Shown: one piece after another, positions 60,833-64,000 of the stretch
How positions within the stretch are numbered: the stretch's first letter is position 1
How the letters are laid out: every line of letters starts with the position of its first letter
Source of the DNA: Janthinobacterium sp. LM6
Lineage (GTDB): Bacteria; Pseudomonadota; Gammaproteobacteria; Burkholderiales; Burkholderiaceae_D
Reading direction: 5' to 3'
Assembly (NCBI RefSeq): GCF_002002885.1
Contig: NZ_CP019510.1
Span: 4,278,001-4,342,000 of the forward strand
DNA: 64,000 nt
Translations under genes and position numbers: made by a program
The notes under the pieces: model-generated
What the model saw: the letters and a program-made list of their open reading frames with translations, nothing else
Database searches by the model: none
Told to the model about the DNA's origin: nothing

Positions 60833-60922
60833 TGTAAGTGTTTGTAATTAGATCGAATCGTTGTCAACGCTATTGCCGTGCGGCGCGTTTTTGGCTCAGT
60901 GACAGGGGAAATGCATCTCCTG
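60833..60922 (+). promoter_or_regulatory. promoter and leader of Asr-like gene 1
   Basis: TGTA at 60833 and 60843 (TGTA-N6-TGTA), GTCAAC at 60863-60868, exactly 17 bp, CGTT at 60886-60889, then GCTCAGTGAC and a leader hairpin CAGGGGA/TCTCCTG (60903-60909 with 60916-60922, one G-U pair). The TGTA pair sits 10 bp further upstream than in the two other copies. Confidence 0.65.
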
Positions 60923-60954
60923 AACTACAACCCCACTTCTCGAGGAACTGCACC

Positions 60955-61266
60955 ATGAAAAAAGTAATCGCTACTCTGATCGCCGGCTTGTTCGCTACCG
61001 CAGCCTTTGCTCAAACGCCAGCCGTGCCTGCCAAGGCCGAAGCCAAGCACACCAAGGAAGTGGCAAAAGCAGAAGCCAAGGAAACCAAGGCCGTAGTCAA
61101 AGCCGATGCGAAAGAAGCAGCCGTCGCCGCCGATGCCAAGGCCGATGTCGCCAGCGCCAAGGCCGACGCAGCCGCCACCAAGGCAAAAGCCCATCACAAA
61201 GCGAAAAAAGCCAAAGCCAAGGCTGACGAAGCCAAAACTGAAGCGACCGCAGCAGCAGCCAAGTAA
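60955..61266 (+). CDS. secreted Ala/Lys/His-rich protein, Asr-like paralogue 1
   Basis: A 103-residue protein with a signal peptide (MKKVIATLIAGLFATAAFAQ, cleavage after AFA) and a mature part made almost only of Ala, Lys, Glu, Asp, Val and Thr, in 11-residue-like units (KAVVKADAKEA). The basic AKAHHKAKKAKAKA segment near the end recalls the acid-shock protein Asr. It should be a soluble, helical or disordered periplasmic protein. It is the first of at least five paralogues and the only single-gene unit, with its own promoter and terminator. GAGGAACTGCACC precedes the ATG. Function inferred only by likeness. Confidence 0.85.
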   Translation: MKKVIATLIAGLFATAAFAQTPAVPAKAEAKHTKEVAKAEAKETKAVVKADAKEAAVAADAKADVASAKADAAATKAKAHHKAKKAKAKADEAKTEATAAAAK

Positions 61267-61293
61267 GTCCCTCCGCGCTTTTCCGCGCCACAC

Positions 61294-61319
61294 AAAAAGA
61301 CAGCCTCGGCTGTCTTTTT
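61294..61319 (+). terminator. terminator of Asr-like gene 1
   Basis: GACAGC-CTCG-GCTGTC stem-loop followed by TTTTTG; the flanking A-run pairs with the T-run. Confidence 0.85.
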
Positions 61320-61367
61320 GCATTTTCATGCAGCCTTCTTCAATGAACGTCGCTTAAATCACCTGAT

Positions 61368-61443
61368 TGTAAGCAAGTGTAAACAAGGTCAACCATAACC
61401 TTCCGGGGCGCGTTTTCTGCTCAGTGACACGGGAATCATCCCG
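61368..61443 (+). promoter_or_regulatory. promoter and leader of Asr-like genes 2 and 3
   Basis: TGTA at 61368 and 61378, GTCAAC at 61388-61393, 17 bp, CGTT at 61411-61414, GCTCAGTGAC, then hairpin CGGGA-ATCA-TCCCG (61430-61443). Spacing between the TGTA pair and GTCAAC equals that of the third copy. No second promoter is visible before gene 3. Confidence 0.65.
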
Positions 61444-61487
61444 GCACCAACCGACATACCAGACAAACCACCACAGAGGACTGCACC

Positions 61488-61841
61488 ATGAAAAAAGCAA
61501 TTGTTACCCTGATCGCCGGCCTGTTCGCTACCGCAGCCTTTGCCCAAACCCCTGCCGCCCCGGCAGCGTCGGTCCCCGCCAAAGTGGAAGCGGCGCACAC
61601 CAAGGCTGTCGTCAAAGCCGACGCCAAGGAAGCGCAAGCCGTCGTGAAAGCGGATGCAAAAGAAGCGAAAGCCGTCGTCGCCGCGAAAACGGAAGTGGCC
61701 AGCGCAAAAACGGAAGCAACTGCCACCAAGGCCAAGGCGCACCACAAAGCCAAGAAAACCAAGGCCAAGGCCGACGCAAAACTGGCTTCGGCCACCGCTG
61801 CAGCGCCAGCATCTGCACCAGCGCCAGCAGCCGCCAAGTAA
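61488..61841 (+). CDS. secreted Ala/Lys/His-rich protein, Asr-like paralogue 2
   Basis: A 117-residue paralogue with signal peptide MKKAIVTLIAGLFATAAFAQ. Two perfect-looking 11-residue units (AVVKADAKEAQ, AVVKADAKEAK) follow, then AVVAAKTEVASAKTE and the KAKAHHKAKKTKAKA segment, and an Ala/Pro tail (SAPAPAAAK) unique to this copy. It is the first gene of a two-gene unit; its near twin is at 63560. GAGGACTGCACC precedes the ATG. Confidence 0.85.
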   Translation: MKKAIVTLIAGLFATAAFAQTPAAPAASVPAKVEAAHTKAVVKADAKEAQAVVKADAKEAKAVVAAKTEVASAKTEATATKAKAHHKAKKTKAKADAKLASATAAAPASAPAPAAAK

Positions 61842-61882
61842 TCATCGACACACCATCACTTACCACTCGCCAGGAAAATAAA

Positions 61883-62215
61883 ATGAAAAAAGTTATCGCT
61901 ACCCTCATCGCCGGCCTGTTCGCTACCGCAGCCTTCGCCCAAACCCCTGCCGCCCCGGCAGCGTCGGTTCCCGCCAAGGCGGAAGCGGCCCACACGAAAG
62001 CCGTCGCCAAGGCAGAAGCCAAGGAAACCAAGGCTGTCGTGAAAGCCGACGCCAAGGAAGCGGTCGTCGTCGCCGATGCGAAAGCCGATGTCGCCAGCGC
62101 CAAGGCCGACGCCAAAGCCACCAAGGCCAAGGCCCATCACAAGGCCGGCAAAGCCAAGGTAAAAGCGGATGCGGCAAAAGCGGACGCCGCAGTTGCTGCC
62201 ACACCGGCAAAGTAA
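61883..62215 (+). CDS. secreted Ala/Lys/His-rich protein, Asr-like paralogue 3
   Basis: A 110-residue paralogue (MKKVIATLIAGLFATAAFAQ signal peptide). The mature part combines KAVAKAEAKETKAVVKADAKEA, as in paralogue 1, with KAKAHHKAGKAKVKA. It begins 41 bp after paralogue 2 with AGGAAAATAAA before the ATG and no promoter of its own, so the two are co-transcribed. A terminator follows at 62280. Confidence 0.85.
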   Translation: MKKVIATLIAGLFATAAFAQTPAAPAASVPAKAEAAHTKAVAKAEAKETKAVVKADAKEAVVVADAKADVASAKADAKATKAKAHHKAGKAKVKADAAKADAAVAATPAK

Positions 62216-62279
62216 GCACAAAGGTAGCCACGGGAGCGCATCCGCCGGGTCTGCGCTTGCGTGGCCACTTGCAGTACCA

Positions 62280-62304
62280 GGGACAGCTTCGGCTGTCCCT
62301 TTTG
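62280..62304 (+). terminator. terminator after Asr-like gene 3
   Basis: GGGACAGC-TTCG-GCTGTCCC (8-bp stem with a stable UUCG-type loop) followed by TTTT. It separates the Asr-like unit from the serine hydrolase gene. Confidence 0.88.
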
Positions 62305-62421
62305 CATGGCGCTCGTCCGGCGCGCCTTCACGCGAACTTCATCGAACAGGCCAGCTTGCGCGCGACAAAACGGCGCACATGGGCGACACTGGCAATCCGA
62401 CCATCGCCACGAAAGCTGTCC

Positions 62422-63444
62422 ATGCGCCGCCTGCCCTTGTCACTATTGAGTGCCCTCTTCCTGTCATGCCCTGTCCTGGCGCAGGACAGCGCCCCCGCCA
62501 CCCTCGATCAAGTCCTGCAAGCCCGGGAGCGCGACAGCCATGGCGACTTGCGCGCCGTCGTCGTGCTGCGCGACGGGGCCATCGTCGCCGAGCGCTATTA
62601 CAACGGCGAGACGGCCGACACCCTGCACGACATCCGCTCGGCCGGCAAGAGCATCACCGCGCTGCTGGTGGGGGCAGCCGTGGCGCGCGGCCAGCTGGCG
62701 ACAACAGGAACGGTGGGCGGCTACTGGCCCGAAGTCGCTGCCAGCCCGGCGGGCAAGGTCGTCCTCGACGACTTGCTGACCATGCGTTCGGGCCTGGCCG
62801 CCTTCGATGAAGACGAACAGTCGCCCGGCAATGAAGACAAGCTCGATGAAGCGCCCGACCCCGCCGCCTTCGTGCGCGGCGTGCCGGCCGCAACAAAGCC
62901 GGGCAGCATCTACCGCTACAACTCCCTGGGTTCGTACATTGCCGGGCGCGTGGTGGAAAACGCCAGCGGCGCCGACCTGGAAGACTACGCCGCCAAGGCG
63001 CTGTTCGCACCGCTGGGCATCACGCGCTGGAGCTGGGGCCGCGACGTGGCACGCCACCCGAAAGGCCAGGGCAACCTGTCGCTGCGCGCACGCGACACGG
63101 CCAAAATCGGCCAGATGGTGCTGGACGACGGCATATTTGACGGCAAGAGGGTGATCGATGCCGCCTGGCTCAAGGCAGCGCTGGCGCCGCGCGTGGCCAT
63201 CGGCGCCGTCGACCGTTACGCGGACAGCTACGGTTATTTCTGGTACGCGAAGTCGCAGGACGTGGCCGGGAAAAAGATCGCCGTGCATTTCGCCTCGGGC
63301 AACGGCGGCAACAAGATCTACGTGATACCGGCGCGCCGCATGGTGGTGAGCATCGCATCGAGCGCGTACGGCAAGGGCTACGGGCAGCGCCGTTCGGAAG
63401 ACATCCTGAAAGCCATTTTGGCCGTGGATGCCACGCAGATGTAA
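62422..63444 (+). CDS. periplasmic serine hydrolase (class C beta-lactamase / PBP-like family)
   Basis: A 340-residue secreted enzyme with signal peptide (MRRLPLSLLSALFLSCPVLAQ). The SxxK catalytic motif is SAGKS (after DIRS), and a YNS triad-like motif occurs in YRYNSLGSYIAG; a HFASGNGG segment is in the place of the third (KTG-like) motif. It may act on peptidoglycan-derived peptides or esters rather than on antibiotics. The start at 62422 lies before the signal peptide; there is no clear Shine-Dalgarno. Its stop codon overlaps the upstream TGTA box of the next Asr-like promoter. Confidence 0.87.
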   Translation: MRRLPLSLLSALFLSCPVLAQDSAPATLDQVLQARERDSHGDLRAVVVLRDGAIVAERYYNGETADTLHDIRSAGKSITALLVGAAVARGQLATTGTVGGYWPEVAASPAGKVVLDDLLTMRSGLAAFDEDEQSPGNEDKLDEAPDPAAFVRGVPAATKPGSIYRYNSLGSYIAGRVVENASGADLEDYAAKALFAPLGITRWSWGRDVARHPKGQGNLSLRARDTAKIGQMVLDDGIFDGKRVIDAAWLKAALAPRVAIGAVDRYADSYGYFWYAKSQDVAGKKIAVHFASGNGGNKIYVIPARRMVVSIASSAYGKGYGQRRSEDILKAILAVDATQM

Positions 63445-63515
63445 GCGTTTGTAATGAGCGTCAACGCAAGCGTCCGGGGGCGCGTTTTATGCTCAGTGAC
63501 ACGGGAATCATCCCG
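63440..63515 (+). promoter_or_regulatory. promoter and leader of Asr-like genes 4 and 5
   Basis: TGTA at 63440 and 63450, GTCAAC at 63460-63465, 17 bp, CGTT at 63483-63486, GCTCAGTGAC, and hairpin CGGGA-ATCA-TCCCG (63502-63515). Layout is identical to the copy at 61368. The first TGTA includes the stop codon of the serine hydrolase gene. Confidence 0.65.
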
Positions 63516-63559
63516 GCACCAACAGACATACCAGACAAACCACCACTGAGGACTGCACC

Positions 63560-63892
63560 ATGAAAAAAGTAATCGCTACCCTGATCGCCGGCCTGTTCGC
63601 AACCGCTGCCTTTGCTCAAACGCCCGCAGCTCCCGCAGCCTCGGTTCCCGCCAAAGTGGAGGCAGCCCACACCAAGGCCGTCGTCAAGGCTGACGCCAAG
63701 GAAGCGCAAGCCGTCGTGAAGGCGGACGCCAAAGAAGCGAAAGCTGTCGTCGCCGCGAAAACGGAAGTGGCCAGCGCCAAGGCGGAAGCGGCCACCACGA
63801 AAGCCAAGGCACACCACAAGGCCAAGAAAACCAAGGCCAAGGCTGACGCAAAAATGGCATCGGCCACCGCAGAAGCGGCTCCAGCCAAGTAA
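63560..63892 (+). CDS. secreted Ala/Lys/His-rich protein, Asr-like paralogue 4
   Basis: A 110-residue twin of paralogue 2: the same signal peptide type, AVVKADAKEAQ and AVVKADAKEAK units, and KAKAHHKAKKTKAKA, but a shorter tail. DNA differs from paralogue 2 mainly at silent positions, while the 5' leader is almost unchanged. It is the first gene of a second two-gene unit. Confidence 0.85.
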   Translation: MKKVIATLIAGLFATAAFAQTPAAPAASVPAKVEAAHTKAVVKADAKEAQAVVKADAKEAKAVVAAKTEVASAKAEAATTKAKAHHKAKKTKAKADAKMASATAEAAPAK

Positions 63893-63937
63893 TTCCTTCT
63901 CACTGCATCGCCCCGAAAATACACCAAGGATCTCATC

Positions 63938-64000
63938 ATGAAAAAAGTTATCGCCACCCTGATCGCCAGCCTGTTCGCCACCGCCGCTTTCGCCCAGACC
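63938..64000 (+). CDS. secreted Ala/Lys/His-rich protein, Asr-like paralogue 5 (runs off the window)
   Basis: The first 21 codons, MKKVIATLIASLFATAAFAQ and one more residue, encode the family's signal peptide. It begins 45 bp after paralogue 4, matching the paralogue 2-3 spacing, so the whole two-gene unit has been duplicated. The array therefore continues beyond the right edge. Confidence 0.82.
   Translation, partial: MKKVIATLIASLFATAAFAQT

Follow-up and report, generated by a model that had tools for sequence, protein, structure and literature searches.

We describe an array of five secreted, Ala/Lys-rich paralogues (asr1 to asr5) that occupies the plus strand in the last 3.2 kb of a 64,000-nucleotide stretch of Janthinobacterium sp. 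LM6 DNA (the window; bases 4278001-4342000 of the 6.29 Mb genome, which is a single contig). The genes lie in three units, each opened by a promoter of two modules, a tandem box (TGTAA-N5-TGTAA) followed by a core of rigid spacing (GTCAAC-N17-CGTT). The promoter is conserved in relatives together with its helical phasing, a like box is conserved at the regulator gene risA, and the proteins are under purifying selection. We conclude that the array is a real, conserved and selectively maintained system, whose shared promoter probably lets the cell flood its envelope with these proteins under stress. On balance, we give roughly equal weight for and against the fuller proposal that the regulator RisA and a sigma factor of the extracytoplasmic function (ECF) type drive a multi-copy periplasmic protectant working like Escherichia coli Asr.

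A two-module promoter opens each unit of the array

Four of the paralogues are complete within the window. The first, asr1 (60955-61266, 103 amino acids), has a signal peptide, 11-residue Ala/Lys/Glu units and a KAHHKAKK segment. It is followed by asr2 (61488-61841, 117 amino acids) and, 41 bp downstream of asr2 and without a promoter motif copy of its own, by asr3 (61883-62215, 110 amino acids), both secreted paralogues, as is asr4 (63560-63892, 110 amino acids). The fifth, asr5, begins at 63938 and runs past the window end at 64000 (L007:6939-7202 in the fetched genome locus); its product of 87 amino acids is Ala/Pro-rich and contains the segment KATHKKAKHHKAKK. The initial annotation had described five tandem signal-peptide paralogues of 103-117 residues built from 11-residue units. 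The five genes stand, and the length and the units hold for asr1-4 and not for asr5. Its division into three transcription units fits the sequence, with a terminator-like hairpin 3' of asr1 (61293-61320, plus strand; L007:4294-4321). Similar hairpins after asr3 and asr5 were seen by eye and not listed by the hairpin scan, which returned seven in total against a shuffle mean of 8.2, that is, no excess.

Every unit opens with the box and then the core, all on the plus strand. In unit 1 the box (TGTAAGTGTTTGTAA) spans 60833-60847, 15 bp before GTCAAC, and the core 60863-60889; in unit 2 the box (TGTAAGCAAGTGTAA) spans 61368-61382 and the core 61388-61414; in unit 3 the box (TGTAAGCGTTTGTAA) spans 63440-63454 and the core 63460-63486. 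Our motif search thus recovered the series TGTA-N6-TGTA, GTCAAC, 17 bp and CGTT that had been reported for all three units, and the coordinates agree with the reported distance from the start of the second TGTA to GTCAAC, 10 bp in copies 2 and 3 and 20 bp in copy 1. Both modules are rare by chance. TGTA-N6-TGTA occurs four times in the window (at 60833, 61368 and 63440, plus 16357; chance mean 0.18) and GTCAAC-N17-CGTT three times (60863, 61388 and 63460; chance mean 0.08). At a tolerance of three mismatches, the combined motif has matches across the whole genome only at the three array sites, and the control has none.

The promoter is conserved across relatives

A protein-similarity search placed the closest named relatives in Janthinobacterium, including two loci (L038 and L039) with an identical first protein. 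From the loci found in this way, after five overlapping own-genome loci had been dropped, we collected 109 Asr-like open frames, counting those that start with MKK, MKR or MKN and satisfy composition limits; MNK-type relatives fall outside the count. GTCAAC lies within 220 bp upstream of 68 of the 82 first-in-unit frames, CGTT follows it at exactly 17 bp in 68 of these 68, and the core precedes none of the 27 second genes. Many of the 14 first genes that lack GTCAAC have repeat-coding sequence directly upstream (by eye, uncounted) and are therefore probably second genes themselves.

An exact tandem box precedes 53 of the first genes. The gap between its end and GTCAAC is 5 bp (40 genes), 6 bp (6), 14 bp (3) or 15 bp (4), which makes two classes about one helical turn apart. 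Because this gap varies while the distance from GTCAAC to CGTT is constant, GTCAAC belongs with CGTT: the two act together as a rigid element, and the pair of TGTAA half-sites acts as another, which slides in whole turns.

The full motif, with at most two mismatches, was found in 25 of 41 genomes, made up of all 25 from the genus and none of the 16 from other families, and the reversed control gave no match. The initial annotation had made its claim depend on conservation at orthologous loci, and the promoter passes on both counts, among first genes and across the genus. A looser motif matched 51 of 116 family genomes, with nine reversed-control matches in nine genomes, and not all of these loose matches are array-type promoters. 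The core is kept across several genera and the surrounding sequence is not. Unlinked paralogues in other genomes (G126 and others) have the same promoter; G126 also holds, near 119563-119609 of its contig C3 (L157), a perfect copy of the combined motif with no downstream frame called. Massilia promoters carry extra half-sites upstream, including one of TGTCA type. At some Caballeronia loci the core precedes a small secreted Ala/Lys/His/Ser protein, and some Caballeronia promoters have the core without the tandem box. An order-wide search for this Caballeronia-type core matched none of 150 genomes, although Caballeronia loci fetched by protein carry it.

We also looked at the 5' leaders. Many of them (L007 3.9-7.2 kb and other loci) begin with a GCTCAGTGACA-like stretch and are individually predicted to form a hairpin just past the presumed start. 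Single leaders fold better than their shuffles (mean z -1.71, 85 of 119 below -1; upstream control windows, mean z -0.55, 47 of 184 below -1). RNAalifold found no consensus pair in 32 of the 51 listed leaders, Rfam gave no match, and we claim no leader structure.

The proteins are repetitive, exported and under purifying selection

In asr1-4 the strongest self-match among lags of 2-23 residues falls at 11 (z 4.4 to 5.4 versus shuffles). Behind a signal sequence of AFAQ type, assigned by eye and not by a prediction program, the mature part is of low complexity and made up of Ala, Lys and His; mature asr1-4 consist of about 40% Ala and about 20% Lys, carry a net charge between +7 and +10, and contain three His each. 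The signal-peptide type and the His/Lys segment are shared by asr5, but the 11-residue units are not. A structure model of asr4, built with 24 aligned relatives, is a low-confidence one (mean pLDDT 60.8, pTM 0.30) and shows one long helix, residues 31-106. Two database relatives (P0024 and P0041) carry a precomputed Pfam assignment, PF27998, which is absent from the output of the Pfam copy used here.

The ratio of nonsynonymous to synonymous differences per site (pN/pS) is 0 to 0.19 in 17 comparisons with orthologues from other loci of the genus, 17 being the usable rows of 18 (asr2 versus L013 was left out for wrong strand). For asr1 it is 0-0.16 against six orthologues, and the protein is unchanged relative to two loci at pS 0.17 and 0.24. 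We conclude that the array proteins are under purifying selection.

A like box at risA and an ECF-like core

The upstream module is built as expected for an OmpR-type regulator, in that half-sites repeated at 10 bp stand in tandem ahead of the core. A genome-wide count gave 12 copies of TGTAA-N5-TGTAA, against two for the reversed control, and three of the 12 are the array. One of the other nine directly precedes an OmpR-type regulator gene (P0001; PF00072 and PF00486), among whose PDB matches chains named OmpR rank third and fourth. The next gene encodes a kinase that has the RisS_PPD domain (PF16524) and matches PDB chain 3te8, named RisS. The remaining eight sites lie near diverse genes, so that in the gene calls of this analysis risA alone is an OmpR-type gene directly behind a non-array site; at one other (L163), a receiver-domain protein lies two genes further on.

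Of 44 family genomes searched, 41 have an orthologue of the regulator. In 27 of 30 family loci risA is preceded by an exact box, and in the other three the box is, by eye, one base off; the mononucleotide-shuffle expectation is 0.017 per set. This like box, conserved at a regulator's own gene, supports the OmpR-family control that had been suggested from the array alone. The 27 risA boxes then served to derive a matrix, independent of the array, with which we scored the 45 bp ahead of GTCAAC. The 99th percentile of 3120 random windows (-1.7) is exceeded by 97 of 104 distinct paralogue promoters from 70 protein-found loci, and in 100 of the 104 the best match runs in gene direction. In a wider, partly motif-found promoter set, 108 of 143 exceed a stricter cut of 2.3 set on 2860 other random windows. 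Since a risA-derived matrix recovers most of the paralogue promoters, RisA is the leading candidate for their regulator, as judged from the sequences.

A rigid spacer between AAC and CGTT elements that hardly vary is the mark of promoters read by ECF sigma factors. The array core likewise keeps its AAC and CGT elements nearly invariant across a fixed 17-bp spacer, and the 67 promoters that we read have CGTT, and no TATAAT-like sequence, at the -10 position.

Genes found behind the motif

The fetched loci contain 188 distinct GTCAAC-N17-CGTT sites, a count made with a very loose upstream filter and from a biased sample, because L001-L112 were found by protein and many later loci by motif. Listing the genes downstream of the motif in relatives, a check proposed with the initial annotation, gave an Asr-like frame by composition at 148 of them. 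By eye, the rest split into 20 that are Asr-like on reading, 16 that lie before or in something else and four without a called frame; some of the 16 fall inside coding sequence (for example in L106, L107 and L205).

Also among the 16 is a Spy/CpxP-like LTXXQ gene (PF07813) in one genome (G112; L239, refetched as L265), headed by tandem box and core in full, as would fit a regulon for periplasmic protection. A CusF-like protein (PF11604, L272) belongs to the 16 too, but is preceded by a single half-site only and is not claimed as a target. Seven further members are small cytochrome c genes from seven family genomes (L249, L250, L251, L257, L258, L259 and L260, each near position 1500), which match the loose pattern with GTCAAC-N17-CGTT. 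They are preceded by TGTAACGGTCAAT or a variant of it (L251, L257 and L259 differ), an arrangement unlike the array promoters that may belong to another regulator. A gene resembling lptD on reading, with TGTAAGCAAATGTAA some 350 bp ahead of it (position 4508 of L165; 6130507 in the own genome, minus strand), may be one more target of the regulator proposed for the array.

A proposed mechanism and its alternatives

In the mechanism that we propose, the array would be a stress-inducible, dosage-amplified periplasmic protective system. The RisS kinase would sense acid, low Mg or a related condition of the envelope, and RisA would bind the tandem 10-bp half-sites upstream of the core, on the same helix face at 5-6 or 14-15 bp, while also controlling its own gene through the like box. 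The rigid core would be read by an ECF-type sigma factor, so that phosphorylated RisA and the sigma factor would jointly switch on all copies. The exported Lys/Ala-rich products, largely helical or disordered, would then protect periplasmic proteins and the outer membrane, as E. coli Asr does. We put forward only tentatively a broader version, in which a Burkholderiales envelope-protection regulon would act as an AND gate, with RisA on the phased box and a putative ECF sigma factor on the core. Its output would be a rapidly duplicating secreted family of 11-residue repeats, convergent with Asr and with late embryogenesis abundant (LEA) proteins and joined in some species by a Spy-like chaperone.

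Were the mechanism true, RisA/RisS, a pair conserved in the family, would gain a specific and testable target outside pathogens. The array would also provide a natural promoter set, in which the box-core distance shifts by about one helical turn around a fixed core, suited to the study of how an OmpR-family regulator could act together with an ECF-type sigma factor. It would further point to convergent evolution of disordered periplasmic protectants from 11-residue units.

Several observations weigh against the RisA-ECF mechanism, and we take them up here with the alternatives that they bear on. The most general is that the core alone is not enriched genome-wide (12 matches against 28 for the reversed control); the signal therefore lies in the combination of the modules and in its conservation. 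On the side of the products, the structure model is poor (mean pLDDT 61) and asr1-4 reach the cut-off of no Pfam or NCBIfam model. Instead of acid-shock chaperones, the proteins could be general protectants of LEA group 3 type, or structural Lys-rich proteins of the envelope, that respond to drying or to osmotic or envelope stress. Their 11-residue periodicity and single long predicted helix resemble the LEA group 3 11-mers, they have just three His per mature protein, and no known acid-resistance gene was recognised adjoining the array when neighbouring genes were judged by eye. Against this, asr1-4 match no LEA profile at E 1 or below, and the KAHHKAKK segment and the Ala/Pro/Lys/His-rich asr5 resemble Asr in make-up. 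We regard the LEA-type or structural role as a plausible alternative, if not one that we favour.

As regards the polymerase, the promoter could be read by the housekeeping sigma-70 with no ECF factor involved, GTCAAC being either the regulator's third half-site or an unusually conserved -35 element. GTCAAC does stand 10 bp after the second TGTAA start in most copies, like a third repeat, and Massilia promoters include a half-site of TGTCA type. Moreover, no gene could be matched to the ECF-type sigma factor that the initial annotation had suggested: among 30 loci taken from 40 Sigma70_r4_2 matches, none has the motif as its own promoter, which leaves no autoregulated candidate among them. Relaxed patterns gave three matches in these 30 loci, two near or in the domain coding sequence (L205 and L214) and one at the edge (L230), and among the conserved neighbours in 75 loci no sigma factor was recognised by eye, with no profile search of neighbours made. 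The housekeeping reading is nonetheless hard to reconcile with a box-core gap that varies beside an invariant GTCAAC-CGTT spacing, with CGTT in place of a TATAAT-like -10, and with the Caballeronia promoters that have the core and no tandem box. A scan of the region found no sigma-70-type site, which says little because shuffles predict only 0.3. We consider a sigma-70 promoter unlikely.

The box, too, might be read by a different OmpR-family regulator, such as an equivalent of RstA, CpxR or ColR. Several OmpR-family regulators use similar 10-bp direct repeats. On the risA matrix the medians of the paralogue promoters, 8.0 and 8.8, lie far below that of the risA boxes (34.4, the lowest box scoring 22.8), so the individual half-sites are matched better than the box as a whole, and seven of the 104 promoters, three of them from Caballeronia (L098, L105 and L107), fall below the cut. 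In addition, TACA-N6-TACA is the published RstA consensus layout (PMC4117788). The kinase half of our mechanism has a difficulty of its own, as RisA of Bordetella pertussis is served by another kinase, RisK (PMC5020355). The initial annotation had named RstA on the strength of the layout. However, in gene direction the box of E. coli asr (TACATATCGTTACA) has TACA where the array box has TGTA, and the regulator gene that bears the box is a RisA orthologue. Its site is the only one of the nine outside the array directly before an OmpR-type gene, it is conserved there, and the matrix derived from the risA boxes recovers most paralogue promoters. A regulator other than RisA therefore seems to us rather improbable.

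That the array is merely a drifting tandem-duplication cluster, with promoters alike through common descent of recent copies, is largely refuted already and very hard to credit: copies 2 and 4 are near-identical and copy number differs among genomes, but pN/pS does not exceed 0.19, the core outlasts its surroundings across genera, and unlinked paralogues elsewhere have the same promoter.

Surroundings of the array

Between units 2 and 3 lies a serine hydrolase gene of beta-lactamase fold (62422-63444, plus strand; PF00144, 122 bits) with a signal-peptide-like start, whose stop codon (63440-63444 region) sits within the first TGTAA half-site of the unit 3 box. Recurrent neighbours in 75 loci, judged by eye from printed cluster starts, are LigD-like and Ku-like proteins, a short-chain dehydrogenase and RND pump proteins. 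Elsewhere in the genome is a distant, longer secreted paralogue, listed as 163 amino acids (L008:4676-5167, minus strand), and the array promoter motif was not found in its upstream region. The plasmids searched gave no match, and at the level of titles and abstract beginnings we found no account of the array or its promoter in the literature.

Comparison with known systems

The core shares AAC at -35, CGTT at -10 and a fixed spacer with ECF promoters. The EcfG promoter is GGAAC-N16/17-CGTT; the array has GTCAAC where the EcfG type has GGAAC, and a response-regulator box upstream. A comparable order is known from E. coli degP, where CpxR sits upstream of a sigma-E promoter. The host genome has an orthologue of the OmpR/EnvZ-type RisA/RisS pair of Bordetella and Burkholderia. 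The genes that RisA serves in B. pertussis are virulence-repressed ones, with RisK taking the place of RisS, and the consulted part of that account mentions no Asr-like target (PMC5020355). A Spy-like gene stands behind the same promoter in G112, but the Spy/CpxP periplasmic chaperones (LTXXQ, PF07813) are a protein family distinct from the paralogues.

LEA group 3 proteins are built of 11-mer repeats (PMC12871917). The array proteins share Ala/Lys/Glu-rich units of 11 residues and, at low confidence, a predicted helix, and differ by their export and their His/Lys segment.

The system that first suggested itself is E. coli Asr, which carries the annotation periplasmic chaperone. One account describes it as a chaperone that is intrinsically disordered and induced about 1000-fold at pH 4.4 (PMC10746267), and another reports bands of the asr promoter retarded by RstA (PMC11135836). 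The array proteins and Asr alike are small, secreted and rich in Ala, Lys and His, and are encoded near a tandem TACA/TGTA box. Homology to Asr was a candidate that we rejected: asr1-4 have no match to PF06392 at E 1 or below, nor does anything in the whole genome at E 1, whereas the E. coli control is positive, with Asr scoring 47.8 bits (the L261 entry, a wrong stretch of 33 amino acids, was left out of the scoring). BLASTP likewise did not align either asr4 or asr5 locally with E. coli Asr, although it may be blind here because of low complexity. The initial annotation is thus partly supported: its architecture of a multi-copy secreted system is right, and its Asr and RstA names are not supported. 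The array resembles Asr in size, export and composition only, and differs by its 11-residue Ala/Lys/Glu units, its several copies per genome, the opposite orientation of its box, its GTCAAC-N17-CGTT core and its candidate regulator of RisA type. By analogy, the array proteins may work like Asr, but we do not class them as members of the Asr family.

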